From positions 29,273,925 to 29,337,924 of the forward strand of contig NC_089725.1 of NCBI RefSeq assembly GCF_035083965.1: a DNA stretch of 64,000 bases, in the 5' to 3' direction. This DNA is from Branchiostoma lanceolatum. Lineage: Eukaryota > Chordata > Leptocardii > Amphioxiformes > Branchiostomatidae. Both the position numbers and the translations under genes were made by a program. This document shows, piece by piece, positions 18,292-45,330 of the stretch. The notes under the pieces were generated by a model. That model was given only the letters and a program-made list of their open reading frames with translations, searched no databases and was not told the DNA's origin. The first letter of the stretch is position 1; every line of letters begins with the position of its first letter.

Positions 18292-20706
18292 ATGACGACC
18301 AACTCTTCAGCCAGCGGTGACAGGGAGTCTCCAGTGCTGAGCCCAAGAGAGGCAGGCCAGCCCTTCACCTACACACCTGCCGACAGGCCAAAGAAAAGGT
18401 CCTCAAAAGGCGGCAAAAAAGGCAAGAGGGAAGAAAATGATCAACCACCCTGTCAGCCCGAAGTTGTCACAGAAGAAGTCGGGAGTGACGGAGGTGTCAT
18501 TGAAACCACCTGCAAGGATGTCGTTGTGTACGTTCCCCGCAACCACTTGTCGGGGAGGGGGGTGCAAGAGGTGACCGTTACCGTGTCAACTGATTGTCCA
18601 CCAGAAGCCCAGGGCCCCCAGACCGCAGCGGTTGCACCCCTGGTTAAGGTAGAGCTCAGCAAACCAGAGAATGTGGAAAAGACCATTGTTGTGGATGTCC
18701 AAATGGATACGAGGATCAAAGAAGAGGAGAGGAACACCACCCACATCGAGTGCCTTCGAAGCAGCTGTCCCAACAATGGTTATGAGCAAGTCGACCGTCA
18801 ACTGTACCGGATGATGCCAGGCAACATCATCAGACTGCTTCTGCAAGGGCCAGGTCAGGAAAACTTCATCATGGTGGTGGCTAAGACCGTGAAGGACTAC
18901 ATCTGGGACACGCTGGAACGAAAGGTGACTTTTGCAGTGTTTGGTCCATGGAGTCTCCAGAAATCCATGGTCCCGGTGCTGTTCTATTCCTGTCATGGTC
19001 TCCGTGGACTCTTGGCATGGTACGACTCCTTGAGGGAAAGGATGGGATCTGCCAGTCAGGCAGAGGGTCATGTACAGTGGGGAGAGAGCTACGACATATA
19101 TGTGGGCAAACCACAGAGACTTGAGGTTACTGCATCACTCAAATCATCTTCCTGGGAAGTTGATGAAGAAAACAAGCAAACAGTCATAACTAAGGGAGCT
19201 CTGAAGAAAAGACGCAGCGACAAATATGGGTTCGTAGTGACAAAGAAGAGCGGCAAGAAGACAGACCCATTCGTCATCACCTTCAAAGTAAAGCAGGAGG
19301 AGAAGAGCAAGGCGTTTGAATTCCATGTTGCCACCCCAGCTGGCCCTCCTGACAGCGCCCCAACAAGCCCACGGCTGAAGCGTAGAAGAAGAGGAACGCC
19401 ACAGAGGAGGTCAAGCGCCAATCTACATCCGACAGCTCCCTCGGTTATCAACTGTCAAATCGTCAGGGCCAAGCTGACCAGACACAGAAGCCAGTGGTAT
19501 AAACTGGACTACAACCAAGGACAGTTCATTCCAGTCTTGACCAACCAGGGAGTCTTTGGCCACAGTGATAAGGAAGAAAAGGAGTACTGGGTGGGATACA
19601 CCGATGGAAGAGTTGGCTTCTTCCCGAGTGATGATGTGGAAATCGTGGAGAGTCTCCGTCCCGAGGTCTGTCCGACCAAGGACGGCCTTCTCCGGTCCCT
19701 CCTGGAGCCCTGTCGTCATCTGAAGTTCAACTACAGTTTCATCCGACAGGAGATTGTCAACAACCTTGTGAAGTGGCCCAAGCTCGCGAGGCAGGTCGGC
19801 TTCAACGAGGCTGACATCGAAGACATCAAGGTCAGGAACTGCGATGACGGCAAAGAGCAGGTCGCTGCGATGATGGAAGACCTTCGACAGCGCATTGGGG
19901 AGGAAAAGCCTGAGCTCCTGATGACTGTCATCGATGGACTGTTCCGTTGTGGGATTCCTTACAAGAAGGTCGACTGTCCTCAGCTGGCACTCAAGATAAT
20001 GTTAGACTCCCTTCTGTACACTGTGGCCCTCAGCACGCACCCAAGCTACCTGGAGCTGGGAGCTAAGCTCGGGTACAACATCATCCATCTGATGAGAATC
20101 AACCAGCAATGCAAGGGAGTGAGCAGCTCTGAAAAAGTAGGTTTTCCTTTTCTTATTTATCTTCCCTTGTTTCTCTTGTGAATTTTTCTTTCTCAACAAT
20201 ATAATAATCAGTGCCAATAATGCAAGGTAACTGTTACTCAAGCAACTGGATAGATTTAGGAAACGGTCAGACGTTTCAAGTAGCATCCAGGAGTCACTGA
20301 CAAAAGGTAGTGGATGCTACGAAAATGTCTGACCGTTTCTTAAATCTTGAGTATCTGTTACTAGCACCTTGCATATGTTATGTTACCTGGATGTCTAACC
20401 ATCATCAATGTACTCATTGACAAGTTCACATATCATATCATATGCTGGTCTCTTCATACTGCCTATTGGTCTGGATTGATGAGTTCCTGTGTCTGTCCCC
20501 TCCAGGCGTGCCAGCCAGAGTACGCCGTGCTCCAGGAGTGGCAGGCGCAGAAGTGGAGCGGGAAGAACCAGGACCCGGTGGACATGCTGCAGTGGCTGCA
20601 CATCGTGGTGCAGGAGATGAGCGAGGGTAGCCACGGCGACCAGGAGTTCCGACACATCCAGGGCGTCATCCTCTTCCTGCTCTGCTACAGGCGCATCCCG
20701 CTGTGA
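18292..20706 (+). CDS. Uncharacterised protein with SH3-like segment and two death-domain-like segments, 681 aa
   Basis: I do not recognise a named orthologue. Exons 18292-20136 (615 codons, unusually long here) and 20506-20706 join in phase 0 (SSEK|ACQPEY). Residues 1-150 are low-complexity and charged (PKKRSSKGGKKGKREE). Residues 151-350 form a compact region with alternating strands and no family I can name. Residues 360-372 are a basic patch (RLKRRRRGTPQRR) resembling a nuclear signal. Residues 387-453 look SH3-like (QIVRAKLTRHRSQWY, then GYTDGRVGFFPSDDVEIV). Residues 478-560 resemble a death domain (WPKLARQVGFNEADIEDI, then QVAAMMEDLRQRIGEEKPE). Residues 571-660, crossing the intron, resemble a second (YLELGAKLGYNIIHLMRI, VLQEWQAQKW, DMLQWLHIVVQEM). 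This suggests an adaptor in apoptosis or innate signalling, by inference. Poly(A) signals are near 21794 and 21979. Confidence 0.8.
20219..20400. mobile_element. Hairpin MITE, ACTCAAGCAACTGGAT family
   Basis: GTTACTCAAGCAACTGGAT, then AAACGGTCAGACGTTTCAAG and TAGCATCC, is followed by the inverted arm GGATGCTACGAAAATGTCTG, ACCGTTTCTTAAATCTTGAG. It lies in the intron of the death-domain gene. Copies occur at 35138, 38372 and 59689. Confidence 0.75.
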
Positions 20707-25392: not shown

Positions 25393-28300
25393 CTATTCCA
25401 CGTCGACCAACAAGTCGTCGCCCTCCAAGCTCATGCCCTTTTCTACGGAGATTTTCTTGACGACGCCGTCGACGGGCGCCTTGACGACCATCTCCATCTT
25501 CATCGCGCTCAGCACCACCAGGGGGTCGCCCTTCTTGACCTTGTCGCCTTCTGCAACCTTGACATCGACGACGGAGCCGGGCATGGGGGCTCCGATGGAC
25601 CCCTTCACGCCCTTCAGGGCCTTGGGGTGGAAGTGCATTTCCTGCAAAACAAGGGCATGTTGCATTCCCTCACTTCAGATACATGAAAGCAGAAAAATTA
25701 TTATTTCTTTGCCTTTAACTTTTGATTTACCATTTTAAGCTAACCTACATCCTGCTACATTTCACCATTTCAAAGAAGCAAGAGGAAGCTGAAGTTACTA
25801 GAAACTAATATATATTAGATGTGCCAAAATATCTTGCTGTTGTTGTGATTTGTACTTAGCCAAACAGGAAAAATGTGTACAATGAAGGTCTTCATTCTGA
25901 CACTCAGCTAGCAGTCTTTAGATCTATAGGATACTTGTAGGTTCGGCAGTTTTCAGCACCATCTGAGAGCAAAAGTAAATTTCTCTGTTTTGGTTTTGTT
26001 TAAAGATTCGATTTGAAAGATTTAAAGCAGGTGGTTCTTAACATAAGCAAAGGAAATACAGTTAAGAGAAACTAGTTAACTTTTTTTTAGTCTTGGGACT
26101 GACCTTGAGCGCCTGGTTGTCCTTGACCAACACTGACCGGAGCTGCCCGTTCATCTCGAAGAAGACCTCCCGCTGACCCATCTTGTTCAGGTCTCCCACT
26201 GCCAACGGCTTGATGGACAGGGTCTTGCCTTTCTCGATGGCCACCTAGAAAAGTGAAGGCATTCTTATGTCACAAATTCCATATTACCAGCCTATGGGTA
26301 AGACAGTAAGACCCATCTTGCTCTCCCATTGCCAGTAGTTTGATGGACAGGGTCTTGCCATTCTCGATGGTGACCCCAAAAAATTATTTTCTTACACCTT
26401 CCAAGTTCTCTGTCTATTGGTAAATATGCGAATATACTTTCATCATCATCATATTGGGCAGCTTGCCCGGAATAAGGCTGCTCTCTCCCTCCAGGTGTCA
26501 CGGTCCGCCATTAGTTGGTCTAGTTATATATACATGTACATACTATAGTATGTCCAATTGTAAGAGGATATGAAAGTATAGTGACAATACAGTCAAATCT
26601 GCCCCAAAAGACAACTTTGGGACTGATAAATTCTGATCTATAAAAACAGGTCGTCTCTATACACAGGATTCATAATGCTTGTGTCAATGGGACAAATTAT
26701 CTAAGGAACCACCAAAAAGTGGACTCACTGGTCAGGTGGTCCCTATGTAGAGGTGGTCACTTGTACAGGTTTGACTTAACATCACTACCGGTCACAACAC
26801 AACTGTTGGTGTGGCCTCAAACCATCCATACACATGGAATCCTGTGCTTGGTGCTGAACACTCTCCGCACACATATAAACCTGTCCTTGGTGCTGAACAC
26901 CTTCCACACATTTACAAACCTGTTCCTAGTGCTGAACACTACTACAAACACACACTGGCTTTTCTTTCCTAGGCCTTACAGGTATATCACGCACATCTAT
27001 GACTGAAAATATCATCAATAAGTAAGTAATAGACCCTTAAGAACTTCTTACCTCACACTCCTCAGCAATCTTGGGTCCCGTGAGGAACAGTCTCGTCTCC
27101 AGACAGTCCACCGGCCCGAAGTCGCTCCTGAATATGATAAAAAGTATGTGAATAGCTATGTATATCTGGTCTTTTATGGTGCCATGATTGACAAGACTTT
27201 TCCCATAGGGACAATACTTAAGCGTCTCCATCAAAATCGTTAACTTTAAAAAAATCATAGAAAATCTCAATTTGTTGTATCATTAGACAAAAAAGAAAAT
27301 TGAATGATCAGAAGAATTAATCTATGAGACGGAGCTATTTTCAGTGACTTCCATCCAGCGTATGCAAAACTTTGGTGTGCCATTGCCTACCTGAAGTCTA
27401 AGTACTCGTCCAGAACGGTTGGGTAGAGCGCGGCACTCAGCACGTCCCAGTCCTGCACGGGGATCTTCTTACCGAACTTCTCCAGGAGCTGGAGCTTCAG
27501 CGCGGCGAAGTCCAGCGGCGGCATGGACTCACCGGGGCGGCCGGTCACTTTCTTCATGCCCTTCAGGATCTGGGGTGGAGATTTTAAATTTTTTAATCTT
27601 TTTATTTAAAAAAGTTTATGGAAGACATGCAACAGGTTACAACGACAGAGGGTTACAATGCGGTAGAAGTCCAGTTCTGGCATGGTGGCCGGTCACTTTC
27701 TTCATGCCCTTCAGAATCTGGGGTGAAGATTTTTATAATATTCAAAATATATCTAGATTTACAGTAGTATGAATGATATGTGGGCAGGAACCTGGAGAAA
27801 TGTACCCAAACTGGGGCAGCCAGTCACTTTCCTTTCATACCTGTTAGGATCTGGGATGGAGATCTTTTTGTTGAAAACATTTTATTGAAGCCATAAAACA
27901 GATTAGAACAACAAAGTGCATCCCTGACAGAAAATCTGCTTTGATTGTGGTGTGATGACTCTGCAGTCCCTGTGAAAACCGCAAACATAAACCCATGAAA
28001 AATGCAGTGGTATGCATGTAATGCCGTAACAATTGGGCATGTTTTTATCGTCTCACACACTTTGCCTCGATACAAATGAAGACACTGCATTTGCCAATCA
28101 AGACATGAAAGATCTTTAAAAGACTAAACTGACCTTTGACCTGAGGGGTTCTGGGAAGCCACCGTACGGCTCGCCGAGGTAGCCCTGGAAGAACTCGATG
28201 ACGGAGCTGGGGAGGGACAGCTCCTCCGCACGGTCCAGCACCATCTCAGGGGTCAGCTTGTTCTGCACCATGAACTGGGCAAGGTCACCTACGACCTTGG

Positions 28301-31300
28301 ATGATGGGGTCACCTGGTGGGAAAAATTGCAGATGTTTAGGAGTAGACTTGGATTTTGAGATGTCGTTTTAAGATGACATTGTCTACAACAGAAAGATGT
28401 CTTCCAAATAACATTAACAGTTCAATCCATAACGGAGTGGCTGCATCTTGATCAAGGTTTTAGTTTTCCACATATTTTGTTGTACATTTTGACTGAGGTA
28501 GGCAGGGCCATGGGATCAGTCTATTGTGGAGAATCATGCCAAATGAATCAGTTACGATATCTCTGTTGAACAATGAATATCTCTCAAGACTATGAATAAC
28601 AAAGAACCATTGAACCAATGAACAACCTGTACCCAGCCTACATCTCTGTTGTACAAGCAGATTATTAAAGAACAATGAATAGTCCAAAAGACTTATAGTA
28701 TGAACCATTGAAGAACACTATACCAAGACAGGTACCTTAATGACATCACCGAGAAGCTTGTTGGCCTCAGCATACGCCTTCTTAATCTCAGGGAACTTGT
28801 CGGCCAGCCCTAGACTGTAGGCCTGGAACTGCAGGTTGGTGTACTGGCCGCCCGGGATCTCGTTCTCGTAGACGTCTGCGTTGCCGCTCTTCATGGAGAC
28901 CGTGCACTCGAAGGGCGAGTACAGCTGTCTGGTCTGCTCCCAGTACGCACTGTAGTCAAACACTCTCTCCAGAGGGATCCCTGGGGGAAAAGAGCACACA
29001 TGACATTTCTCAGTTTGCTGAGGCTGACACTAGGGATGAAATGATTGGGTACTTGTTTTGTACATTTTCATTTATGTGTGATGAATTGTAATTGTAAAAT
29101 CGACACCACTCAGGTATATCATTGTCAAGTGTTTACCAAAGTTAAGAAATATCAGCAGGTGCACGATGGCATTTTGAAAACATGACCGGACCATTTCTTG
29201 ACACACTGTACCTTTTCAGACAATTTCATTGCCAGGGACCCTTGCATGATGTACAAACTGTACAAGACTTATATAACCTACATGAATATGCACCTGTTAT
29301 GTGTCTCTGTAATGCCAAGTATGTGTAATGATTCCACTCCATGTTTACAGATCTATCAGGACTTCAATCATGCAAAATGTATATTTCTTATCATTTGTCT
29401 GACCGTTTTATTACCTTTTCACTCATGATCATGACCTCAACAAAAAGAAGCCTGCAGGCCATTTGGATATTCTCATTAATAAACAAACAAACAAACCTGT
29501 ATCCAGCTCAGTGCCCTGTAGGGACGCCACCAGGGCTCCCATGCTCGGCTGCGACGTCATCCCAGACATGGAGTCCACCGCCACGTCGACCACGTCTGCC
29601 CCAGCCTCCGCGCACGCCAGCATGGAAGCCACGCCTGCGCCCGACGTGTCGTGGGTGTGCACGTGGATGGGCATGTCAGGGTGCTTGTCTCTCAGGGCAG
29701 AGATCAGGATCTTGGCAGCCTGGGGCTTCAGGAGCCCAGCCATGTCCTGCACAGAACAAGGGGAAACATTAAAAGGCAATCCAAAATGGCACAACTCACC
29801 CTGTTGCCTATATCATTTTGTGACCCTTAGGGTCCCACACACAAGAAATAGAAGAGCTGAAGATGTATCAAAATGCTGTATGTCTAAACTGGAAAGCACA
29901 GAAGGGGGATTCAACTTCCATACTCTTTCCAATAAGTGCTGAGTGCTTAGCAGAGAAGCAGTATGATATACTATTTTCAAAGTCTTTGGTATGATTGACC
30001 CTCACCTTTCCTCTCATGACCTCAATAAAAAATGGCCCCACAGCCAATTTGAGCTTCCCATGAATAAAGAAAGGTTCAGACAAACAAACACACCTTGATG
30101 CTGAGAACGTGCGTCCCCGCCTTGATGAGTTCGTCCGCCAGGTCCATGTAGTACTTCAGGTTGTACTTGGTCTTGGTGGGGTCGGACACATCGCCGGAGT
30201 AGCAGATGGCGGCCTCCACGATTCCGCCCGCCTCTCCCGCGGCCTCCATGCCCAGGATCAGGTTTGGCAGGTAGTTCAGGGAGTCAAACACGCGGAACAC
30301 GTCCATGCCAGTCTCCTTGGCGACTTTGCAGAACCTGGAAAGAAAAGAGCACACAGGATGAAACCAAGGACTTTTAGAATCAATTTGGCTTTGAAATGTC
30401 CATTTTCTTTTCCCTTATCAAGGTTCAAAAATGTACAATGTCTTTCCATGTGGGATGTTGCTATAACTCAACTAGTAGCAGCCTCACAGTTGAGCTCCTG
30501 CTTCCAATTACAATGTAGTTGCAGTTCAATCTTGGGTCAGGACATCTCGGTATCTGAAGGGTGGTTAAATACTTACTCAAAGATGACATTGTCGGGGTAG
30601 CTAGTGTAGCCCAGAGTACTAGTGCATTATGCTGAAGGGCTAGTGTGTTAAGCTGAAGGGTTACTGGTAAATACTGGCTATATACATATACAGACACTCA
30701 CTCAAAGATGACGTTGTCTGGGTAGCTGGTGTAGCCGACGCCGTTGGCTCCCCGCAGCAGCATCTGGAAGGGGATGTTAGGGATCCGCTTCCTCATTGCC
30801 TCCAGACGCTCCCACGGGCACTCCTTCAGGAACCGCAGCGCCACGTCAAACGTCGCACCTGGGGGGGGGGGGGTCAAACATTGAAGTCAAAAGTCCTTCC
30901 CTCACCATACAGCAGGTAGATACTGTAGATGCAGAAATGTTCGCGGTGGTTTTATGTTCAAGGTTTTTATGGTAAGCTCTTTACTGCGAACTTAAAACCA
31001 CTGCGAAATGCCATTCCAATGTGTGACTGTAGCACTACTAATACTATTGTTTCAAACACCAACTCAAAACCACGGCGTACACTCCATTTTCCCCCTACCA
31101 CGAAATCAAATCCATGCGAATTTCTGCATTTACAGAATACAGAATATTCTTGAGACTTGATAATTAGAAAAAAAATTATATTAGGGGCAATAGAATTTGA
31201 TGACTTCATGCATATGGTCACAAAAATAATATCTAGAATTCTTTCATACCCAGCTATCAATAGTCGGTACAACTACGGTTCTTTCTTAAGTCATTAATGA

Positions 31301-34300
31301 GAGAAGAATGGAAAGTAAAAATGCTACTTTAGCCAGGGAGGAAACCTTAAGTCTCTGAAGTCTTGCGTAAAGTCTCACGATAATAAATGAATCAACAGTA
31401 TTGACTGCTCCCCTCACCTCCCCAGTTCTCCACACTGTACATGTTGGCGAAGTTGTGCGCCACGAAGGGGGCGATGCGACACAGGTCATACGACCTGACC
31501 CGCGTGGCCAGCAGGGACTGATGAGCGTCTCGGAACGTGGTGTCCATCAGAAGCAGGCCCTTGTGGTTACGCACGGCCTTGGCGAAGCCTTCCGGACCCT
31601 CCTCCACAAAGATGTCGCGGAAACCTCTCGGCAGAGGCTGGTCTGGAAGGTGAAAATAAAGAAACTGTGAAAAATAGTTTTATCAGGTTGATAAATCAGT
31701 GTTTAACTAGTTCTTTGTGCACGGCCAGGATATAATTACAAATGTTTCAATGACCGTCTGTCACCATCCTCAGGGCATTACTGATTGGTTCTACTTTGCA
31801 CTGCACCTAGGTGTTGCTGCTGCAGTGTGAAGAATGCGGTGCCAAGCGTGACTAAGTTTTTATAACCGGTTAACCATCATGGTATGACTAAATATATACT
31901 CCAGTAGGAAGTAGAACCAGTCAGTATGGCAGACGGTCACCTGAACGTCAGCAGGTGATTATATACTGGTGTACATAGAACTTTAAAAATAAATAATAAA
32001 AGAATTATGTTGTAAATGATTTTCATTCTTTCCGTCATTCTATGCATGTCAAAGTTGGCTTTCAGGTTCAAATCTGGAATCAATCAGTATAAACATGTAT
32101 TGAAAATTAATTCTCCAAGTGTAATGTAGATTTTCCTATAAGGTCTTTACATTTGAGGGGCTAATCTACACAATGTATTTGGTCATTAGACTGAAAGAGT
32201 TCATGAGCTATACCAAGCTAGCTGGATGCAACAATTGCTACTTTTCTGTGATATTTCATGAGGTATAAGTTGCAACCATTTACGAATGTTTCGGCAATGA
32301 GATTAGAATTCTCTAAGCTGCTGGAGAGAGTTATGATTAAAATTGGGGATTGAAGTCAAAATCAAGTCAATATTCTATTATAAAGGCTTTTAAATTAGTG
32401 ATATCTATGTCCTAAGTTATTGATTGAATTCTACAAAATCAGCATGAAAAATGGATGTGCTAAGGGTCTGTCTACAACTCCTTTTTGCCAACTTGTTAGG
32501 ACACACCAATTCATTTCCTTGTTATCAGAGTTTTTAAGTTGATAATGTAGCACAAAGTCAACATGAGAACATGGGGCTGGGAGGAAAGTTTGAATCTGAC
32601 TACTGTATATTCAGTCCCAAAAACTGTGTGAACTAAGACCCTGTTCATATCAGGACTATCATAGCCAGTTGAATTAATTTAGCCTGTTAATTTGCGTTCA
32701 TATTGCAGGCTCCATATTGGGCTAAGATAGCCGGCTAAATTAGCCGGGTAAATCTTTATTAATAAACTAATTCAACTGGCTATGATAGGCTAAATATGAA
32801 CAGGGTCTAAAGGTACAGGCTTTCCCCTCAGACTATGTTTTCATGTCAATCTTCCAGTTAAGCACGATTTTTCGCCAAATCCAAGAACAAAAAAACTGAA
32901 CTGGTGTGACCTTTTTTGGGCCTATCACTCTGTTTTAACCTTCTCCCTGCTGCCTAACCCTGTAATCAATACAAATTTGGTGCCAAGAGGCTACTTCAGC
33001 AGGGAGAAGGTTAATTGGTAAGTATGCTGCTATTTGTTCCCTCACTAAATCATTCTGTGGAAAACTGCTCAAACCTGTGGACACTTTATTGGTACACAAT
33101 CGAAAAATAACAAGAAAATCAGTGAGCAAAAAATGAAGAAATCATCAGTGAACATAACATTGTGAACAGTTGCACACGTGGAGCGCGGAAGCTTGAAGCA
33201 CGATTAAAGTCATTCGCAGGAAAAGAAGCAAATTAGGTTAGAGAACCACCTTGCCTGGAGTCGTCCTGAAATGTGAAGGTAGCGTGCAGGGCTTTCTCCA
33301 GCTTAGAATCTTAATCCGTCTTTTCTGTTTGACAGTGCAAAGCCCCACATTGAGCGGTGAAGGCCTGAGAAAGCCAGGTCAGTTTGGGGGTTATGGGAAA
33401 GTTTGGACTTTTTAACTGTCTGAAAGGATCTTGTTTCTAATTTAGAAGCCTGGGGCAAATTTCAAATGGCTTTATCTTGATTTTGCAAAATTTTTGTGAT
33501 GCTGTTGATGACTTTTTTTTCTGGGGGACAGAATGGTTAAAACTTTGTCCTGAGCAGCAAAATCCAAGGATGTAAGAAAGGACGGATGCTGGAGAAAGCC
33601 CTGGTAGCGTGATTAAAAGCAGATGAGAGGCAAACGGATTAGACAATGAACGAGTTCACATGCAAAGCTGTTTGCACGAAAGCTTGGCAGGAAGCAGAAA
33701 TTAAGGCAGCACAGTTCGCTTGTGGTGCATATCAACTCTTAGGCAGCATTGGAAAGATGCCATAGTCACGGTGGTAGGTTTCAAGCTTGAAGCTGTGCAA
33801 ACAGATGTATTTTGGTCTGTTTTGATTTCAGTCATTTGGGTTGAAACAATTGTGTTGATATCACTTTTATATGTGACCTTCTTACCAGCATTTGATTGCA
33901 TTTTTAGGTGTTCATTACTGTTTAATACTTTAATTACTAAAAACACAATAAAGCTCATCAAGTTAAAAAGAACTTTTTTACAAAAGGGAAACAGCTGCAA
34001 AACTTATTTTCTTAGGAGGGAACATTATACGACTGACATTAAATCGAAGCGTCATGCTTGTTATAATTTGGGAGGTGTGTGTAGAAGATGTATTTCCAAT
34101 CTTGGAAAATCAACCCTGGTACCATCCTTCAATATTCCATTGTGTAAGAGAGCTTCACAGTCATTCAGTTAATCAACAGCATAGCACTTATAAGTTACAC
34201 GTCCCACCTGGAAATCACAGACAGTTATGATTACCTTCACACAACAACACTTCCTTGTCATGAGCAGGGCTCAAAATACCACCTGCATTATCATATAGGT

Positions 34301-37300
34301 TAGTGCAGGTATCTGTGATGTCTACAGTCTACCTGCAGTGGTCCATATACTTGATATGTGAGTTAGTGTATCACTGTATGACAGTACTATGTGGATTTTC
34401 AATTTCTGCATTGATTGTTATCGTCTGTGAAATGGCAAATAAAGAATTGGGATCTTTTAAAAATGATCCACATTGCTATATTAATGGACGTGGTGCAAGT
34501 AAAAGTGATTTGGAAAGTTATCTGCACCAGTGCAGGTATATGCAGAATAAAGAAGTACATCAAAACCTGTACAAGTGACCACCTCCACATATTTTTTGGT
34601 GGTCCGGTCCCTTAGATAATTTTTCCTATTGAGACAATACTCTGTCTAGCATAGTGAACACTTTTCCACTTAGACCAGATTCTACCGGTCCCGAATTGAT
34701 AAATGAATGAATGAATAAATGACAGGTTTATTCAGCAAATTCAGGTCCGAGTGAGTGATTTCTTCTTTAACTGTTTTGACTGTACAGTATTTCGAGCCCT
34801 GGTTATATACACATACGTCCCTGCGCCTGTATCCACTGAGCCACGGCACAGTGAGAAGGACAGCTCACCTCGTCTCTGCCTTTTGTCTGACGGGTCTGGA
34901 ATGGTGGGAGCCCCAAACACACACAACATGGGTGACAGGAGAGCAGAGTTAGTCACCAGTCACCAACATGAATGACATGCACACCCAGGACGTAAGAGTA
35001 AAACTATGCTAGCACATTTAAACTACACATGGATATAGATATAGAAATATGTTCATACAAAGTAGAAGTATCAAAGAACCCTGTAAGCACCTTCGTTAGC
35101 ACAATAGTATAGATTAAGACGTTGATGAAAGTTAGACATCCAGGTAGTAAGATACGCTAAAAATAATTACTCAAGCAACTGGATACAATTTTGAAACAGA
35201 CGTTTCAGACAGCATCCACTGTCTTTCGTCAGTGACTAACGATAGGACTGAGAACACCGTCTGAAACGTCTGACTGTTTCAAAATTTTATCCAGTTGCTT
35301 GAGTAATTATTTTTGGAGTATAAATTAAGATTAAACTTTGTCGGTTTGTCATAAAAACTTGTATCTCATTTCAATATTGACGGAGGTCCTGCAACATTCC
35401 CAAAATTGTTCAAAGAACAACTGTGGGGCACAAATTTGGCATGGCTGCCTGAAAATTGGTACATTATTATCTTCCTGTTTGACATGATACAGTACTGGCA
35501 TTTCTTGGACACTGCAAAATAAAGCTTCTCGTCAAGGATATCAGTAAGTGTCCTATATAATCATACAACAAACTACGATGAATGTAACTGCGCCGTAAAA
35601 CACGCACCAGCCGACTTGACACTTGAAGGCTTAAAAGTAATCAAGAAATACAAGTGCATAATGGACTCTATGTTACAGTGTTTGTAGTGATGACAGCACG
35701 TCTTTATACTACAAATTGGTACCGCTTAAAGGTTGAATGTATTTTCAAACCTCATATTTAGATAACCTATCGTCTCAAGGTCAAATCATAATTTTCATGT
35801 AAGCATAAATGTTTTGTAGTATACGCAATGACTTTGACACTAAATAAGTTTTAAACATGAATGACTCACCGAAGGGCACCGGGGGCACCACGGGCGTGAT
35901 CTCTGCTGGCATGAGGCCGGTGGGGAGGGGGGTGCAGGGCCCGTTGACCATGATGTGTGCGATGTAGTAGAGCAGCTTCTGGGCGCGGTTGCGGCTGGGG
36001 ATGAAGTTGAAGAGGCCGGGGTTCTGGTCGATGAAGTGAGTGGAGATGGCCCCCGACAGGAACTCCTCGTTGTGCAGCACGTTTTGGAGGAAGGGGATGT
36101 TGGTCTGTGGAAAAGGGTCAAACAATATCACTGTTGGTAATGTTTGCAGTGGTTTTGTTTTTGGTGCTTTTTGCGGTGACCTCTCCTTTGTGAAATGATG
36201 ACACCGTAAATATGTGTTTCCACTGCATTAACAGTACCTGTGCTTAGTCTACACAAAAGTCTACACACTTAGTACATTGTGAAAACCTCACTTATCTTCC
36301 TCCTGCAGAATTAAGTCCTGCGAAAGATTTACAGTTGTAGCTGATTTCACAACAGGTGTAGCAATTCCTAATCAATGCACGAAAATATGCCAATTTTTGG
36401 AAACTTACACTGTAGACCAACTCTATATGATGACCTGTACATACATGTAGTGGTCACCTACAATGTACCTACTGTGACCAGTTTCTTGAGTGCTACCATA
36501 ATATTGATGACAGCAGTACTTTTTGAGATGATAATATCGTCCTTACCTTGACGCCTCGGATTCTGAACTCGGACAGCGCTCTCCTCATCTTGGTGGCGGC
36601 GGAGCGGTGGTCGATAGCGTGCGCAATCACCTTGCACAGCAGCGAGTCGTAGTGCGGGGAGATGATTGCGCCTGCGAAGGCCGACGCGCTGTCCAGACGG
36701 ATCCCCATGCCCTCTCCGCTCCGGAACACCTGCGGGAGTTAGGGCAGCACATGAGCAACAGTTACCTATCTCTGTAGATCCAAGTTACCCACATCTATCC
36801 TTGGTTTCAGTTAGGGTAGATATAGATATACATAGACCTGTCCCCAGCTTCTATACACCAGTTGCCAGTACATATGGATAGACCCTGTTTACTCACCTAA
36901 ATACCCTGTTATATGTTAATATAGACCCAGGTCACCCAATTCTACCCAGGGTTAAAGTTTGAGCAGACACAGATAGACCCATCTCTAGCCTACCTAGTTC
37001 CAAGGTTGGGGTGGGTACAGACATACCCAATTAGAGTAGATACAGACCCAGGTTGCCAACCTCTTTCCTAGATATAGGCAGACCCATCTCTAGCCTGACT
37101 GTAACAGGATTAGAGTTCATATGGATAGACCCAGGTACCCACCCATATCCAGACTATACCAGGGTTAGAGTAGACCCAGGTTACCCTCCTTCATCCTGGG
37201 TTAAAGTTAAGGTAGATACAGATAAACCCATTTCTAGCCTACCTGTACCAAGGTTAGAGTAACAGATAGACCCAGGTTACCCACCTCTATCCTGCCAGTA

Positions 37301-40300
37301 TCGGGCTGGAAGTTCCGGCCCGGGTCCTCGGTGGTGACCCGACACTGGATGGCGGACCCGTGGATGTTGATGTTGTCCTGGGACAGACCCAGCTCAGGCA
37401 GGGTGTTCCCCTGGGCGATCTTCAGTTGGGACTGCACCAAGTCAACCCTGCAGTACAAATTTATTTGTTTGTTTGTAAATACGTTGCATACCTGGTAAAC
37501 CACCTCAATACAAAACACATCAGGGTTGTATTTGAAAGAGTACAAGCTGCATATCTGGACTCATTTGATCCACTCACACCTTTTGATAAGTGTGGTGGGT
37601 TCTTTTACATGCTTAAGGTGTGGCTCTCCTCAAACACAGGACCTCCATTTAACGTTCTATCTAAGGGATCCGAAATTATTCATCACTTCACTATCACTCT
37701 GGACAAATTTGGGGAAAATAAGACTTCCTACTCTACAATATCATCATAGAATCACTGAGTGTCAGTCTTATTCATAAGTGTGGTGGGTTCTTTAACATGC
37801 TCAGGGTGTGTCTCTCCTCAAACGAAGAACCTCAGGCTTTATATCCCATTCGAAAGGACATCCCTAACCGAAGCTAGGCACCTGAGTCGAGTGAGGAAAT
37901 CGGTGTCAATTGCCTTTCCCAAGAGCACAGCATTGGGTTTTGTGAGGGATTCAAACCCGGAAACTTTAGAGTCTAAGACAACAACCCTGACCATAAGATC
38001 ATCTTCTTAGCTAAGGTGGCAAACTGTACTCATAAGCCTGCTAATTCCTCTGGCATGTTATCAGTCTACTTGGCCAACTTCTACTCTTTCCAGCTGTCTC
38101 TGGAGTCTGGTAGAGGCTACACCTCGTCACCTTATTTCGTGACAATCACAGGACGACTCACCCGGTGACCTCCTCCGTTACCGTGTGCTCCACCTGCAGT
38201 CTGGCGTTCACCTCGATGAAGTAGAACTTCCCCTGCTCCTGAGGTTACAAGAAGTAAGACAGCTGTTAGCACCCCCTCCATTCATGTAACTTAGTATAGT
38301 CCATCATAAATATTGAGTAAGGTCTTCGTTCTATTCGCATAGTGCATGGTTAAAAACCTACTGATCTACTGATCTTGCTCAGTGTCACTGATGAAAGGTA
38401 GTGGATGCTACCTAAAATGTCTGACTGTTTCTACAATTATATTCAGTTGCTTGAGTAACTGTTATTTGGCGTAATACAATCTCTTCTTCATGCAACCTGG
38501 AGTCAAGCACATGTCTTTGGGTGGGTTTGAGAGATCTCTAGTGCAGCACCCCCCAGGTATGCACAGTTTAGATATACAGGAGTACATTATATTTACACTG
38601 GGGGACGTTGGGTTGGAGTTCTGTTTGGACGCATCTTTTCAGGGAGGCGGAATTATGTACCCTGGTTGAATTATGTTAGTAGATGTAAGTGCTAAAAAAA
38701 TCCTAGAATAGATCAGTAGCGACATTCTACACTACAGCAACCTCACCTGGTCCAGGAGAAACTCCACCGTTCCGGCGTTCTCGTACCCAACAAACTTCGC
38801 CAGCTTCACGGCGTCAGCCAGGATGTCCTTCCGGATGACCGGGTCGAGTTCCGGGGCAGGGGCGTACTCAACGACCTTCTGGTACCGCCGCTGGACGGAG
38901 CAGTCGCGCTCGAACAGGTGCACAACGTTTCCTGCCTTGTCACCTGTGTAGGGGAGTGAGAGTTATGAAAGTGAAAGTGGGATCAAACAGGTGCACTATG
39001 TTCCGTACCTTAATTGTCACCTGCACAAAAGTGAAAGTGATCTCGATCAAGCTTTAGTTCACTGAAGAGCTGATCTTCCACTGGTTATGACAGAGAAGAC
39101 ATAGGCTATAAAGATTTACAGTTCATTGCACTGGGGAAACTCCCCAAGCTCTTCTTGACCAGAACAATGTCGACCGTCCTGTCCTAAGGAGTACAACGCT
39201 ATCTAGTTTGTATAAACGCAAACTCCCGTTGTCCAGGGCTTTTATGGCCCCTCCCCACAGAGGGCGAGTCAATCAAGCTAAACCCTTTCCAGTAGCGTGC
39301 ATGTTGGGCGAGCAACAACAGCTGGGAATCGAACTCAAGACACATATATAAAGACTTAGAATGCAACTGTGAACTGTGTAGAGCAAGCTTGGGAACAAAC
39401 AAATGCCAAGAGTAGGGATCAGATGCAGGTAGACATCAGAAATACTTGCACAGCTCCAATTTTACCTTTACTAACCCGTATATGCAGGTATCATTTCTAG
39501 CCCTTTTCTGACAAAAAAAGAGGGAATTCCTCACCTAGAATCTGCACCTCGATATGTCTGGGCTTCTCGATAAACTTCTCTATGAAGAGAGAGCCGTTGC
39601 CAAACGCTGCCAACGCCTCTGAGGTTGCACGCTGGAAGTTTTCGTTCAGGTCCTGGGAACAAACAAGGATGATCAAACATAACTAAAAAAGCGAGTGTTC
39701 TCCTGCATTTGGAAGTTCAGGGCTTTAAACCCAGCTGGGTTATACCAAAGACATGTCACAATTTATCAATTCATTTATAGATCTTAAGGGTTGACTGAGT
39801 AAGTGAATTCGAACATACTGCTTTTGCTGCTTAGCACTGAGCACTCATGTCATGAGAAACAGTATGGGAGTTGAACACACTCCACTACATGTGTTCTATT
39901 TCCCAGCTGTAGTGACCTGTGTGGCTCAAGGGCATTAGATATAGAGATGGGCACTGCCTCTATAGTCTGCAAGTTATGGGAAGGATCTTAACTAACTTGA
40001 ATAAGCATTTTGTCTTCTGCTTTTTGTACTAACAGTACTGTTTCAACAGCAAACTTTAAACACTTCAAAATTCTCCTTTCCCCTAGCTACTACCACAAAG
40101 TCAAGTCCCCGCAACAAGAAATGATAGTTTGGGCACCCGCTAACGAATATAGGAGCCCCAGTAGTAATCAGATGGCACCCAGGCTACATGAATGAATTTT
40201 CAGTGCACAGGAAAGAATCATACCTCTTTGTTCCTGACGATGCGCATGCCCCTGCCTCCCCCTCCAAACGCAGCCTTGAGGATGATGGGGTAGCCGTGCT

Positions 40301-43300
40301 CAGAGCAGAACTGCTGGGCCTCCTCTAGTGTGGACACTGGACCATCTGTACCGGGCACCACCTGCACACCTGAGGGGAAAAGTTACAAAAAGCCATCAAA
40401 TACTGTAGGACTATCTCACTAGATAGCTTTAAATAACCCTTGCAGTTAGATGTGCAAACGCAGGTCTAGAGTGACATGTCGATCAGTATGATATAACCAG
40501 CTGCTGTCACGCCACATGCCTGCAAAGCTGGTGTGTTACACTTAAGGGTGATCAAACTGCAGATGCAGATACAGAAACAATTTTTCTTCTCAAATTTCAT
40601 AAGGTGCCAAAACTTGCACAGGTATCTCTTTAGTGTTTATGGAGTAAGCAACTTGACATTCATACAAACTTTAAGTTTCTTGAAACATTTGATTTATTAC
40701 AACAATCAGGTCTCCCAAATTTACGAACTCAAGCAGTTTGTACACGTCAGGTATGTTTCCTGGCTTTCCTACATTTTCATACAGCTACAAGATGACCCTT
40801 ATAACCAGCATTTTCCTACAAACAATTTATAAATAAATGATGCCCCAACCTGCAGCGATGGCGATTTGTCTGGCTTCCACCTTGTCTCCCATCTTGCGGA
40901 CGATTTCCGGCGCCGGGCCGACAAACCGTATCCCGGCATCGACGACCGCCTGGGCAAAGTCAGACCGTTCAGACAGGAAGCCATACCCAGGGTGGATGGC
41001 ATCTACGTCGTTTTCCTGAACAACACAAGTTGGTGGAACAGTTAAAAGATTATCTTTTTAAAAAAGGTGCAGACAACAGGCTTACAAAAACATATCTGTC
41101 ATGCACACAAAATGATAGAGGAGGTTATACCAGGGTGGGTGGCGTCTACACTGTTTTGCTGAACACAAGTTGATGGAACAGTTGAAAACAAATTGAAGAC
41201 AACAGGCTTACAAAAACATATCAGTCATGCAACATAAAATGATAGAGGAGGAAATACCCAGGGTAGATGGCATCTACATCGTTTTCCTGAACAACACATC
41301 TAAGTTGATAGAAAAGTTTAAAGCAAGACCCAAACAACAGGCTTACAGAAACAGATTTGTAACATGCACAAAACATGACAGAACTTAAATAATAGATAAA
41401 GAACAAAATGTTAAACAAAACGTTAGACATGAAAAAAACAAAATGCAAATCAAGAAAGGGTATTAACTTGTAAGAATGTGTAAGTATCGATGATTGATCT
41501 ACCATCACTATTGGAAGGAGAAAGTTGGTACAGAAGCTTTCAATCCTGTAAACTGGAATGTATCAAAACAACTATATTCTGCCAATTTGTGAAATATGCC
41601 TACAATCTTACTACAATAAATGCAAAGGTTAGATTGTTTATTTGACCAATGGTTTCTGTTTGCCCAACAAGAACAACAGCTAGCACTCTTCGGGTAATTT
41701 AAACAACATTTGAGTCTGAATCTGCATGAAACCAGTCATGAATCTTATTCTGAAACATGAAACAGGTTGGTTAGAGCTACAGAGTAAAAGGTTAAAAACA
41801 TACACTACAAGCTAAGAAAGCTCTGCTTGTGCTATTTGTGTTATCTATTGCCCTGACAACACTGTGTCATTGGTATAACTACACATCTTCATTCTTTTCT
41901 TAAACATCATGTCATTGAGATAGACAGGTGCTGCCATTGTTTTTGAACACTAGAGGTTTTGCTGTAGGGTGTTAGACAGTATGCACACTACCTTCTGAGT
42001 ATGTGCTTGTACAGTGTTACATAATAGCAGTTCAGAAAAACATCAACATGTAAGTCTTGTGTACTCAGTAAGTTAAGTCATGCCTAGTGGTTGGACTTTG
42101 AATCTTACCCCGGGTAACTTTTTATCACGTCTTGTTTACATATGATGGTGGGTCGGAGTCAAATGTCAAACGAAGTTTATGTACACAGGGGGAAAAACTA
42201 TGCTAACAGCTAAAGACGTATGACACTTTATAATTCATCCACCTTCGAGAGGACTTAATTTTGCAGTGGGCACCCAGACTGACAGGAAATGTCTATTCTC
42301 TACAGTGCGATTTTGCAGTAGAGATGTTACCGCAAAAATAGAACCTCTATATTCAATGATTTAGAGTATTTCAATACCTACAAATGAATGAGTCAGATGT
42401 TTAGCTGAACCTTTCGTTTGGAACAAACTGACAAACAATAGGTGTCCTTGAGTCATTCTATAGTGACGCAAACTTACAGATGTTGTTGTTATTCCACCGT
42501 TGGTCCATTGTTATTGTTCTAAAGTCCAGTTAACTGAGTCAGTAATTACTGCTCTAAAAGGTCAAGCCTGCGGGCCAATACGTAAGGGCATACAATTCCG
42601 ACATTTATATTTCAGGCTATTACAGCGGAGTTTGTATTACACAGACTATCCTAATCAAAAGCATATCTGTCCTTTCTGTCCTCTCAAATTTTGTGTGACT
42701 GCCAGCATTTTCTCAGCAAATGCTATGAACAAGCCAGGGCAGCCTAAATCAAAGTAGCCTTGTGTATGTCAAGGTTTAAGGTGCGTAATGGTTTATAACA
42801 ATGGAAAGCAGGGAGATAAAAGATAACAAACTAAACTATTGTTACTGGAAATCATAAGAAAAAATTATAGCTATGCCATAACAACTGGTATATTGAAGGC
42901 TGTGTATGTAACATCTTATTGCGTTGTTTGTAATTACGTCACTGAAGAGTGGGTTAATAAAAGACAGTGGAATGTTAGCAGAATAACTGACTACACAGAC
43001 ACATACAGACACATGTTTAACAGTTAGTGAAATAACTTAATTAAGACGTACATATATCAGTTTAAGACTATACATTCCAAAGGAATAATGTTCAGCCACC
43101 AGAAAAAAAAGGGGATTGTGGTGAGAGAAAAAAAAGCAGCATGCCCGGACAAAGCACAGACAAGTCTGGTACGTCACCTTCGCTATCTGAATATACTCTG
43201 GGATATTGAGGTACGCTGCCACTGGAGGTAAACCCTTCCCTATGGGGTAGGCTTCGTCGGCTTTCTGTCTATGCATGTGCATTCTGTCTTCCGTGGAATA

Positions 43301-45330
43301 AACGGCCACGGTACTGATTCCGAGCTCCGTGCAGGCTCGAAAAACGCGGATGGCGATTTCACCTGTTGGGAGAGGGCAGACATCGAAAAATCATGTTAGA
43401 CTACATGTGTATCTTTCGTAGAACATGTCACATGTCAGGGCTCGAAATACTGGGAGCATGTGCACCTTTGTACACCCAAAATTGGAGCTCTGCACGCAAT
43501 TTTGAACTGTAGATGCACCTGTACACAAAGATAATTGTGTAGGCTGTTGCTGACATTCTATTCCGAATTATTTTCTGTGCACCTTCAATTTTTGGTTAGG
43601 TGACCCAGTGCACCTGTTCCCAAAGATGAGCCCTGACATGTACAGGCCAGAATACCTCCTCACCTTAGCTATCTCTATGTATTCGGGTACGTTCAAGTAC
43701 GCGGCGACAGCGGGAAGACCCTTCCCTATGAGGTAGGCTTCATCTGCCTTCTGTCTGTACGTCTGTAATCTGTCCTGCTCGGAGAACACCCCCACCGTGC
43801 TCATGCCGAGCTCGTGGCAGGCACGGAAAATGCGGATGGCAATCTCACCTGCACACCCCAAAACAAGACGCTGTCAAACAGCAGCCTCCGTTGCAGACTC
43901 CTTCCGGCTGTTTTCTTTTACTCTCCAAGCAGAGGAGTGGGTCCGGCTGGTTTTTGACATGTTTTAAGGCATTTTTGTCAGCTTTCGATTTTGTCCCATT
44001 TTCTTCATGGTTGGCGACATAAAGAAAATGGGACAAAAACGCCGAAAAACACATAAAAAACAGCCTGACTTAGTTCCAGCTTTCCTCTGCTTGGACAGTA
44101 GTTTTCTTTTTCAAGCCTTAATTCTCTGCCAGCAATAAGAAAGAAAACAGTAACTTGGAAAAGAAAAAAAACGGAGGGAGTCTGCAACGGAGGCTAGTCA
44201 AACAGGTGGTCAAATTAAAGTACCAGTGAAATGAAATTTCCTCTACAATTCACATCAAAATTTTGTCTTTTCTGAAGACATCTAATAAATATGTAATCTT
44301 TAACTCAGTGGTCTACTGTATGCTCTTTGGTGGGACAAATTAGCAACGGGTCCTGAAGTCACAGAAAGGACTAGGAGTCCTTTCTGTGATGTCACGACCT
44401 GTAGCTTATTCGTCCAACCAAAGAGCACAGTTGATTTAAAGATTACACAGATGCATTTAGAAAAGAGCAAATTCTTACATGAATGATAGAATAAAGTCCA
44501 CTTCACTGGCACTTAAATTGGCAAATTGTGAACTATGGCCAATTTGATTCCGTGAAGGATTGGATAATGTTGTGTATTGAAATTTTCAAGAATCATTTTG
44601 GAATCAGATTTTAAAGTTTCAAAAAGCTGGTGACTGTTGAGGTATATGTATATGTATAATATATATATGTATGGATTGATATGATTATACTTATGAAAAT
44701 ATATAGTACTTTATATGTAACAATAGGATGGCAAAATACAGTTTGGCATTAACATCTGATTTAGACAATTAATGATAGAAATTCTAGTATGGTAGTTTGG
44801 AAACAAAACAATTGCACAATGCACAAACTTTGCACAATGGCTTGGACAAACATCAAGCAAACCGAATGTTTGTTCTTAATATACAGTCAAACCTGTACAG
44901 GTGACCACTTCGGACCACCTGGCTAATATGACTACTTTTTGGTGGTCCCCTTACTACGTAGGGCCTTACATATAATTTTTCCCATTGACAAAAGGATTTA
45001 AGATTCAGAACCCTGGCTGTAGTACCACCTGTCTAAATAGACCAGATTTTAGGTCTTCTTGGGCAGGTTTGACTCTAACGTATATACCGTGGTAATAAGA
45101 CTCTGATGATGGGAAATGGCCCCAAACTTACCTCTGTTGGCAACCATGACCTTCTGTATGGGTTTGTCGGTCTGGGTGGCGGTCTCCGGCTGCGTGGAGT
45201 AGTGACTCCTAGATGCGGCGCCCCCCAGGGCACGGGCATGGCCCCCCAGGGTGGGGGCATGGCCGGTAACACGTAGCTGGGCCTGAGCCACACGCTGCAC
45301 ACACGCCACGGGGGACTGCAGACGGAACAT
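25393..45330 (-). CDS. PC: Pyruvate carboxylase, mitochondrial (1203 aa; 1212 with microexon)
   Basis: Biotin enzyme converting pyruvate, bicarbonate and ATP to oxaloacetate in the mitochondrial matrix. Exons: 45132-45330; 43664-43848 or 43178-43362; 40850-41015; 40224-40369; 39535-39652; 38747-38943; 38162-38238; 37285-37447; 36547-36729; 35870-36104; (34869-34895); 31418-31642; 30702-30858; 30094-30334; 29497-29746; 28736-28980; 28134-28313; 27391-27569; 27052-27127; 26104-26244; 25393-25641. All phases agree. Order: Arg/Ala-rich transit peptide without acidic residues to about 50; biotin carboxylase 60-510 (GGGGRGM ATP loop, [14 protein letters not shown]); carboxyltransferase from about 580 ([26 protein letters not shown], carboxylated Lys about K764 in SIK|DMAG); biotinyl Lys about K1169 in SAMKMEM. 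These sit 23-25 residues later than human K741 and K1144. The exon 13 acceptor has a C13 tract. Many introns carry MITEs. Confidence 0.97.
25538..25546 (-). other. Biotin attachment site region of PC (approximate)
   Basis: The terminal exon encodes [16 protein letters not shown] and [10 protein letters not shown], the biotinyl-carrier hammerhead. The lysine of A-M-K-M accepts biotin; by codon count it falls at about 25496-25500, within the stretch reading CATCTCCATCTTCAT on plus. Coordinates here are approximate to a few codons. Confidence 0.5.
26300..26380 (-). pseudogene. Partial copy of PC exon 20 start
   Basis: CCCATCTTGCTCTCCCATTG, then TTTGATGGACAGGGTCTTGC and TTCTCGATGG, repeats the first third of the exon at 26104-26244 (coding [12 protein letters not shown]) but lacks a good acceptor and the rest of the exon. 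It lies just upstream in the transcript. Confidence 0.7.
26589..26777. mobile_element. MITE, ACAGTCAAACCTG family
   Basis: The ends ACAGTCAAATCTG and CAGGTTTGACT are inverted. The interior has AATTATCTAAGGAACCACC and AAAAGTGG. Related copies are at 34563, 44883 and 56887. Confidence 0.75.
26828..26945. repeat. Short tandem repeat, about 48-bp unit
   Basis: AACCTGT(C/T)CTTGGTGCTGAACAC(T/C) followed by a CACACAT-type spacer occurs three times in a row in a PC intron. Confidence 0.7.
27662..27868 (-). pseudogene. Two partial copies of PC exon 18 start
   Basis: GGCCGGTCACTTTCTTCATG, then CCCTTCAGAATCTGGGGTG, at about 27688 and a more diverged CAGTCACTTTCCTTTCAT with AGGATCTGGGATGGAG at about 27820 repeat the acceptor and first codons ([10 protein letters not shown]) of the exon at 27391-27569. 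Each copy is followed by the same GGAGATTTTT-type intron sequence, so the unit spans the splice junction. Confidence 0.75.
30570..30620 (-). pseudogene. Partial copy of PC exon 13 donor end
   Basis: ACTCAAAGATGACATTGTCG, then GGGTAGCTAGTGTAGCC, repeats the last codons ([10 protein letters not shown]) and donor edge of the exon ending at 30702. The copy lies about 120 bp downstream in transcript sense. Confidence 0.7.
30921..31137. mobile_element. MITE, TACTGTAGATGCAGAAATGTTCGC family
   Basis: The ends TACTGTAGATGCAGAAATGT, TCGC and GCGAATTTCTGCATTTACAG, A are inverted copies. A related copy with a diverged right end lies at 58901-59100, and loose fragments with TTGCGGTGACCTCTCC occur at 36165 and 59618. 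Confidence 0.75.
31751..31939. mobile_element. MITE-like inverted-repeat element
   Basis: TGACCGTCTGTCACCAT with ACTGATTGGTTCTACT at the left pairs with AGTAGAACCAGTCAGTATGG, CAGACGGTCA at the right. No coding capacity. It lies in the PC intron upstream of exon 12 in the transcript. Confidence 0.7.
32637..32808. mobile_element. MITE-like palindromic element
   Basis: GACCCTGTTCATAT with CTATCATAGCCAGTTGAATT at the left pairs with AATTCAACTGGCTATGATAG and ATATGAACAGGGTC at the right. Confidence 0.75.
32935..33015. mobile_element. 80-bp element with TTAACCTTCTCCCTGCTG ends
   Basis: TTTAACCTTCTCCCTGCTG and CAGCAGGGAGAAGGTTAA are nearly perfect inverted ends around about 45 bp. The TTAA at each edge could be a TTAA-type target site, by inference. 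Confidence 0.7.
33279..33610. mobile_element. MITE-like element with GGGCTTTCTCCAGC ends
   Basis: GTAGCGTGCAGGGCTTTCTC, CAGC at the left pairs with GCTGGAGAAAGCCCTGGTAG, CG at the right, about 330 bp apart. Confidence 0.65.
34563..34700. mobile_element. Truncated MITE, ACAGTCAAACCTG family
   Basis: AAACCTGTACAAGTGACCAC at the left, TTTTTTGGTGGTCC and TTAGATAATTTTTCC inside, as in the copy at 44883. The right inverted end is not clear. Confidence 0.6.
34869..34895 (-). CDS. PC: Candidate 27-nt in-frame PC microexon
   Basis: An acceptor (CCACCATTCCAG) and donor (GAG|GTGAGC) bracket 27 nt encoding DPSDKRQRR. Entry and exit phases match the flanking exons (35870-36104 ends with one base of a Gly codon; 31418-31642 starts with the other two), so inclusion adds nine residues and skipping loses nothing. 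It would lengthen the linker after the biotin carboxylase domain (VVPPVPFG ... [11 protein letters not shown]) with a basic stretch. Human PC has no such insert here as far as I recall. Use is inferred from splice sites and phase only. Confidence 0.65.
35138..35320. mobile_element. Hairpin MITE, ACTCAAGCAACTGGAT family
   Basis: It begins GACATCCAGGTAGTAAGATA, CGC and has long arms TTACTCAAGCAACTGGATAC, AATTTTGAAACAGACGTTTC, paired with GAAACGTCTGACTGTTTCAA, AATTTTATCCAGTTGCTTGA, G. The loop contains AGACAGTGGATGCT-type sequence (on minus). Confidence 0.8.
36760..37290. repeat. Degenerate minisatellite in PC intron
   Basis: Units of roughly 55-65 bp built from TAGACCCAGGTTACCCACC, TCTATCC(T), AGGGTTAGAGTAGA and TACAGATAGACCC recur at least seven times with drift. 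It ends directly at the donor of the exon 37285-37447, so the last unit overlaps the splice site context. Confidence 0.75.
37520..38010. repeat. Dispersed repeat, two partial copies
   Basis: TTTGATCCACTCACACC, AAGTGTGGTGGGTTCTTT, GGCTCTCCTCAAACACAGGA and CCGAAGCTAGGCACCTGAGT define a repeat also present at 50662-50930. Copy one covers about 37533-37670 and copy two about 37775-38000. Function and class unknown to me; there are no clear inverted ends. Confidence 0.6.
38372..38475. mobile_element. Truncated hairpin MITE, ACTCAAGCAACTGGAT family
   Basis: Only the right half is present: GTCACTGATGAAAGGTAGTG, GATGCTACCTAAAATGTCTG, ACTGTTTC and CAGTTGCTTGAGTAAC. Confidence 0.65.
38970..39030 (-). 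pseudogene. Partial copy of PC exon 6 start
   Basis: GATCAAACAGGTGCACTATG, TTCCG and TTGTCACCTGCAC repeat TCGAACAGGTGCACAACGTT and TTGTCACCTGTGT at the 5' edge of the exon 38747-38943 (coding [12 protein letters not shown]). The copy lies directly upstream in the transcript and keeps the acceptor-like TGCAG/GTGACAA arrangement but not the frame. Confidence 0.65.
39050..39345 (-). mobile_element. tRNA-derived SINE (minus orientation)
   Basis: Read on minus, a B-box-like GAGTTCGATTCCC near 39340 is followed by GCTCGCCCAACATGCACGCT, ACTGGAAAGGGTT and, at the tail, AATGAACTGTAAAT, CTTCTCTGTCATAACCAGTG, GAAGATCAGCTCTTCAGTGA. The same body and tail occur at 61040-61310 on plus, which defines the family. 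Confidence 0.7.
41120..41305 (-). pseudogene. Two partial tandem copies of PC exon 3 start
   Basis: The acceptor region and first codons (ENDVDAI-PGY) of the exon 40850-41015 are repeated at about 41133-41160 and 41257-41290, together with intron sequence (AACAGGCTTACAAAAACATA, TC and AAAATGATAGAGGAGG). Unit length is about 130 bp. The second copy still reads [11 protein letters not shown] after an acceptor; neither continues into the rest of the exon. Confidence 0.8.
43178..43362 (-). CDS. PC: PC alternative exon 2b
   Basis: 185 nt with acceptor CCCAACAG|GT and donor AAG|GTGACG. It encodes [20 protein letters not shown] through to [12 protein letters not shown], the N-terminal strand-helix unit of the biotin carboxylase domain (residues 67-128). 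Relative to exon 2a it differs at 15 of 62 residues, including [15 protein letters not shown] where 2a has [15 protein letters not shown]. It is closer to human PC in [11 protein letters not shown] and [10 protein letters not shown]. No stop or damaged site. Confidence 0.85.
43431..43640. mobile_element. MITE between the two PC alternative exons
   Basis: It begins CATGTCAGGGCTCGAAATAC and ends GATGAGCCCTGACATG; the ends are inverted copies. Its 210 bp make up most of the 301-bp intron separating exons 2a and 2b. The interior repeats TGCACCTGT(A/T)C and AATTTTTGGT / ACCCAAAATT pieces. Confidence 0.7.
43664..43848 (-). CDS. PC: PC alternative exon 2a
   Basis: 185 nt with acceptor GGTGTGCAG|GT and donor AAG|GTGAGG. 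It encodes [20 protein letters not shown] through to [12 protein letters not shown]. It occupies the same place in the protein as exon 2b and shares entry phase 1 and exit phase 0, so only one of the two can be used in a functional mRNA. Core residues matching E. coli biotin carboxylase R16, R19 and E23 (R-x-x-R-A-C-x-E) are kept in both versions. Confidence 0.88.
43883..44195. mobile_element. Outer MITE carrying a nested second element
   Basis: The ends CAGCCTCCGTTGCAGACTCC and GGAGTCTGCAACGGAGGCTA are 19 of 20 inverted matches, flanked by a perfect 9-bp duplication GTCAAACAG (43874-43882 and 44196-44204). The body is interrupted at about 43920 by the TACTCTCCAAGC element. Confidence 0.85.
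43920..44101. mobile_element. Inner nested MITE (second copy of the 17658 family)
   Basis: TACTCTCCAAGCAGAGGAGT at the left, inverted CCTCTGCTTGGACAGTA at the right, with a GTTTTCTTT duplication on both sides (8-9 bp). The internal arms CCCATTTTCTTCATG / ATAAAGAAAATGGG pair. Edges are accurate to about 2 bp. Confidence 0.8.
44287..44460. mobile_element. Long-arm inverted repeat
   Basis: ATGTAATCTTTAACTCAGTG with GTATGCTCTTTGGTGGGAC at the left pairs with GTCCAACCAAAGAGCACAGT and TTTAAAGATTACACAGAT at the right. The centre is a perfect CAGAAAGGACTAGGAGTCCT, TTCTG hairpin. Confidence 0.75.
44883..45074. mobile_element. MITE, ACAGTCAAACCTG family, next to PC exon 1
   Basis: ACAGTCAAACCTGTACAGGT, GACCACTT at the left; GGGCAGGTTTGACT at the right. 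It ends about 57 bp from the donor of PC exon 1 (exon edge 45132). Confidence 0.8.

Follow-up and report, generated by a model that had tools for sequence, protein, structure and literature searches.

Two intact tandem copies of exon 2 were found in the pyruvate carboxylase (PC) gene of Branchiostoma lanceolatum. These copies, 2a and 2b, are probably mutually exclusive exons that selection has maintained and that would provide two PC isoforms, through which biotin carboxylase (BC) pairing and acetyl-CoA activation would be tuned; we put the probability of this reading at about three in four. In the proposed sequence of events, exon 2 of an intact mitochondrial PC gene underwent an ancient tandem duplication, after which purifying selection would have retained both copies. 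Use of one copy per transcript keeps the frame and would yield two PC isoforms (2a and 2b) that are 15 positions apart.

The PC gene and its duplicated exon

The window comprised the whole stretch of 64,000 nt that was analysed. Its minus strand carries what looks like an intact gene for mitochondrial pyruvate carboxylase; the coding span opens with an ATG at 45330, and its stop codon ends at 25393. The features referred to below are as follows:

45132..45330, minus strand: exon 1, coding part; ends ...VMVANR/G at donor GAG/GTAAGT; common to both isoforms
43883..44195, minus strand: foldback element in intron 1, putatively MITE-like; 37-nt outer arms, 89% complementary
43664..43848, minus strand: exon 2a; 185 nt, 62 residues
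43363..43663, minus strand: intron between 2a and 2b; 301 nt
43178..43362, minus strand: exon 2b; 185 nt, 62 residues
41118..41298, minus strand: two decayed tandem partial copies of the acceptor and start of exon 3, just upstream of exon 3
40850..41015, minus strand: exon 3, the common next exon after 2a or 2b
25393..40369, minus strand: further PC exons, collinear with human PC from residue about 163 on, stop codon included

Exon 1 would supply the start codon at 45330 and a mitochondrial-type leader. Human PC (7wta) was the top match among solved structures, both with the first 277 residues as query (459.6 bits) and with a stitched 801-residue remainder (1291.5 bits). When the window was searched by tblastn with human PC (residues 316-341 and 1037-1057 being outside the query), the exons were found in order from human residue 46 to 1178, and exon 2 alone was found doubled as a whole exon. 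Two PC parts outside the human query correspond to open frames with AG/GT borders at 38162-38238 and 27052-27127. Frame-keeping GT-AG joins that match human PC well were obtained for 14 exon pairs, a set to which the joins to these two open frames do not belong. The BC, CT and BCCP parts lie in order in one gene that is closest to animal PC, as befits a single-chain PC, and all PC exons would form one transcript unit. Scans of the whole window with Rfam models and for tRNAs gave no matches. On the plus strand, an open frame at 18289-20181 encodes SH3BP4-type UPA and Death-like domains together with an SH3 domain; this SH3BP4-like gene runs towards the PC gene.

A preliminary description of this DNA had proposed that 2a and 2b are alternative versions of one BC exon, and its measurements were reproduced throughout. 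Both copies are 185 nt long, with entry phase 1, exit phase 0 and AG/GT borders, and they are identical at 47/62 residues and at 137/186 nt (the shared first G of the codon included). The R-x-x-R-A-C-x-E core, described as kept in both copies, is indeed identical in the two. Their 62-residue products align without gaps to human PC 46-107. When each copy was used as a tblastn query on the window, the other copy was recovered at E 2.6e-29 and the next match at E 0.084 (2a) or 0.57 (2b). The exon 2 duplication is therefore far beyond chance, and a chance likeness of 2a and 2b was ruled out.

Over these 62 residues, identity to human PC is 46/62 for 2b and 41/62 for 2a. The 15 residues that differ between the copies are spread between human positions 52 and 104; their tendency to gather at residues 24-31 is marginal (P 0.053 with all columns counted and 0.060 with the 47 variable ones) and is given no weight here. 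At these 15 positions human PC agrees with 2b alone at nine, with 2a alone at four and with neither at two, so the pair is not just an original exon and a degraded duplicate of it. The Biotin_carb_N model matches both isoforms, at 140.2 and 148.1 bits against a cut-off of 25.5. Both are also matched by the PC model TIGR01235 as fragments, at 192.6 and 205.3 bits; the cut-off of 1114 applies to full-length proteins, and fragments of 129 residues necessarily score far lower.

Residues at the differing positions were also counted in 80 aligned BC sequences, namely 77 of 80 prokaryote loci (three had been dropped because no open frame was obtained with the motif filter) together with PC of human, Geobacillus and S. 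aureus. The prokaryote loci had been taken as the best 80 of 173 relatives; other BC proteins may be mixed with PC among them, and the set is without invertebrate PC. All 15 residues of 2a are present at least once in these sequences, Gln at human 74 being found in human PC alone. Two residues of 2b, His at human position 74 (human Q74) and Pro at human position 85 (human L85), are found in 0/80, and 2b is thus possibly impaired.

Selection on the two copies

Differences between 2a and 2b fall at codon positions 1, 2 and 3 in the numbers 11, 6 and 32, so that 32/49 are at third positions. By the method of Nei and Gojobori, this one pairwise comparison gave dN 0.154 and dS 1.90, the latter near saturation and therefore imprecise, and a ratio of 0.08. 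The synonymous excess was significant (Fisher P 1.7e-11).

Lancelet assemblies are known for high heterozygosity, and two alleles, or a mis-joined paralogue, might have been placed side by side in the assembly. Such an artefact is hard to reconcile with the extent of the repeat, which covers 192 nt at 74% identity, that is, the exon plus merely 3-4 nt per side, and no similarity was found between the flanking introns of 2a and 2b. A DNA identity of 74% together with near-saturated synonymous sites is far beyond that of alleles, and no second whole exon was found doubled in the tblastn search with human PC. We consider an assembly artefact highly improbable.

Simulations were run in which one copy evolved freely for a fraction of its history, a run being passed when the frame stayed open and at least 47 identities were retained. 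With the distance as estimated, at most 1% of runs passed for a free fraction of 20%, 0.1-4.4% for 15%, and 0.7-34% for 10%, the last range reflecting the constraint assumed. When the distance was set far lower, at 0.4 per branch, 16-29% of runs passed for a free fraction of 30% and at most 1.8% for 50%. These pass rates exclude long neglect of one copy and make a recent spell of neglect possible. Neither copy is therefore likely to have escaped selection for longer than a small share of its history. The preliminary view that selection had kept both copies is well borne out by the ratio and the simulations, and purifying selection on the protein sequence of both appears well supported.

As an internal control for the look of unselected duplicates, three other exons of this gene are represented by decayed partial copies. 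Upstream of exon 3, the copy at 41246-41298 is 91% identical over 53 nt and that at 41118-41170 is 64% identical, with a spacing of about 130-140 nt; the less decayed one (41246-41298) runs into a stop. Both are possible decoy acceptors. Another remnant, at 26310-26370, copies part of the start of exon 26104-26244 but has lost 5 nt and lacks AG at its border. For the exon that ends at 30702, an ungapped 41-nt copy of its end and donor, with 4 mismatches, lies in the next intron (30571-30611). Tandem duplication across exon borders thus recurs in the PC gene, and all products but exon 2 are fragments.

Reading frame, splice sites and flanking introns

That inclusion of both copies or of neither would break the frame had been proposed earlier, and this was confirmed. 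Because each 185-nt copy leaves an incomplete codon, 2b is read in a shifted frame when both copies are included and meets a stop within 2b, and exon 3 is shifted into stops when both are skipped. As these early stops lie upstream of many later introns, transcripts with both copies or neither would be expected, on general grounds, to undergo nonsense-mediated decay. Exclusive use of 2a or 2b in mRNA is accordingly what the frame would favour, and we infer it from the sequence.

Splice sites were scored relative to one another, with one site left out at a time, on 16 donors and 16 acceptors of this gene; sites around exons 38162-38238 and 27052-27127, and a few others, lie outside this set. Exon 2a has the best donor of the 16 and the second weakest acceptor (2.1 bits). 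Exon 2b has the 6th of the 16 acceptors (12.6 bits) and the 10th of the 16 donors, and a candidate branch site, CTAAC, lies about 34 nt from it. Since its acceptor is the better one, 2b would be the probable default isoform, and 2a, having a weak acceptor, would need an activator.

Steric exclusion was rejected as the cause of exclusive use: the intron between 2a and 2b, at 301 nt, is long enough to splice, and exclusion by crowding is therefore not expected. Five of five tests for intron-intron RNA duplexes in this one genome, by a method insensitive to short pairings, gave results no better than shuffles (best z -1.05, with 12/60 shuffles as low). Within the same intron there is a 19-nt direct repeat (89%; 43514-43532 and 43609-43627), which contains an acceptor-like ACAG/GTGCA.

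The splice sites also bear on an alternative in which splicing of both copies or of none lowers PC output through nonsense-mediated decay, one isoform alone mattering as protein. With the donor of 2a the best, the acceptor of 2b good and the intron between them spliceable, joining of both copies would be favoured, and both-in and skip-both products alike yield early stops. However, the protein sequence of both copies is preserved at a ratio of 0.08, which is unneeded in a poison exon, and we hold this alternative to be improbable.

The foldback element of intron 1 ends 34 nt upstream of exon 2a and has a predicted fold of -150 kcal/mol. It is flanked by a 9-bp direct repeat, CTGTTTGAC, at 44197-44205 and 43873-43881, and may influence the use of 2a. 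Partial relatives of it lie at 17658-17807 and, inverted, at 17700-17830. A second foldback in intron 1 (44321-44427) has 52-nt arms that are 85% complementary and 3 nt apart.

One copy may instead have been selected for most of its history and lately lost from transcripts, either 2a through foldback damage near its acceptor or 2b through its proline. The low rank of the 2a acceptor would fit such a loss, as would the closeness of the foldback edge to 2a, the possible branch site held by the flanking direct repeat, and the residues of 2b at two positions that are absent from the 80 relatives. The simulations, moreover, allow neglect in the last tenth or so at the estimated distance, and more if the distance is lower. 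Against this, neither copy has a stop, a frameshift or a lost AG/GT, and exon 3, which every PC requires, has an even lower acceptor score (1.9 bits). A fading exon is on balance unlikely, less so than the two alternatives above, and selective retention of both copies as mutually exclusive exons is the reading that we prefer.

The encoded segment and the control of PC

The segment encoded by exon 2 lies in the first part of the BC domain and bears the conserved residues of the BC dimer. The accessible text of PMC5059739 places the adenine of acetyl-CoA in a bond with the main-chain carbonyl of Ala47 in S. aureus PC (Ala45 in the M. flagellatus enzyme) and its 3' phosphate in interaction with the opposite BC monomer. 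A count along the chain alignment puts S. aureus Ala47 at codon 35 of exon 2, where it matches human A80, the alanine in HRYKADE. With the same offset of 2, S. aureus R19 and E23 would be the second R and the E of R-x-x-R-A-C-x-E in exon 2. Among BC-interface mutants of S. aureus PC, as far as that text goes, R19E is inactive, E23R aggregates and K442E breaks the tetramer, and the two-subunit M. flagellatus PC tolerates equivalent changes (PMC5059739). This tolerance indicates that the BC interface surface is not critical in every PC.

The acetyl-CoA site lies partly at the BC dimer interface according to the available portion of PMC5895798. In the portion of PMC9581989 that is available, acetyl-CoA is described as bound by a separate allosteric domain in L. 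lactis PC, with slight activation (127 to 154 per min); on this description exon 2 can supply merely one side of the site. The residues listed there as holding MgATP run from 116 to 286 (PMC9581989), and exon 2 corresponds to about residues 16-77 of L. lactis PC, counted from alignment ranges. The preliminary description had located the isoform differences near the BC dimer interface and on the ATP-lid side. The first of these placements agrees with the equivalent residues in the accessible text of PMC5059739; as the MgATP contacts so listed are outside exon 2, the second is replaced here by the acetyl-CoA side of the BC dimer.

Both isoforms share the acetyl-CoA alanine, the lysine preceding it and the dimer core, and any effect of the isoforms on activation is therefore a guess from proximity. 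The alanine lies four residues beyond the end of an isoform-specific cluster at human 73-76, which reads LQTY or MHMH. The other nearby difference is at human 57, between the C and the E of the R-x-x-R-A-C-x-E core. The likeliest purpose of the pair would be tissue- or stage-wise tuning of BC pairing and acetyl-CoA activation, as PKM exons 9/10 do for pyruvate kinase. A more specific version, which we offer tentatively, is that the exon swap would switch acetyl-CoA control, one PC isoform being strongly acetyl-CoA-dependent and the other less so, with the exon encoding the BC-dimer side of the activator pocket.

The PKM exon swap alters allosteric control of the tetramer. In ketohexokinase, exons 3a/3c are a duplicated alternative exon of a metabolic enzyme that changes its kinetics. 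The closest analogue is the mutually exclusive pair of PKM exons 9/10 (M1/M2), which also sits in a central pyruvate enzyme. Both code for segments of 56 residues, and the length of exon 10, 167 nt, is likewise indivisible by 3 (available text of PMC3498831). PKM differs in enzyme and fold, and exclusivity was proven by experiment there, whereas for PC exon 2 it is deduced. C. elegans COQ-2 also has an exon swap that changes key residues of a metabolic enzyme, but, in the part of PMC8659336 that is accessible, the swap alters substrate choice in quinone synthesis and not a dimer or activator site. Mutually exclusive use of tandemly duplicated exons is also documented for FGFR IIIb/IIIc, including in amphioxus, whose Fgfr has an extra exon IIIx (PMC5703972, accessible part). 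Unlike PC exon 2, the FGFR pair concerns receptor ligand specificity, is controlled by Esrp and is common to chordates.

No recognisable report of alternative PC exons or of such PC isoforms was found in the open-access literature, in keeping with the preliminary statement that none was known. A Drosophila PC 'isoform E' is, in the available part of its source, a protein spot without exon information. The exon-swap device is thus already known (PKM type), and its probable occurrence in PC would be new as far as the open-access literature goes.

Animal PC is usually viewed as a single protein controlled by acetyl-CoA and transcription. A PC with a swappable BC-dimer/activator segment would add splicing as a control of a main anaplerotic step, and the two copies would offer a natural sequence pair, 15 positions apart, for dissecting acetyl-CoA activation of PC. 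If the exon swap did act as an acetyl-CoA switch, the division of pyruvate between oxidation and anaplerosis would be set at PC by splicing, as a counterpart of PKM1/PKM2 one step downstream.
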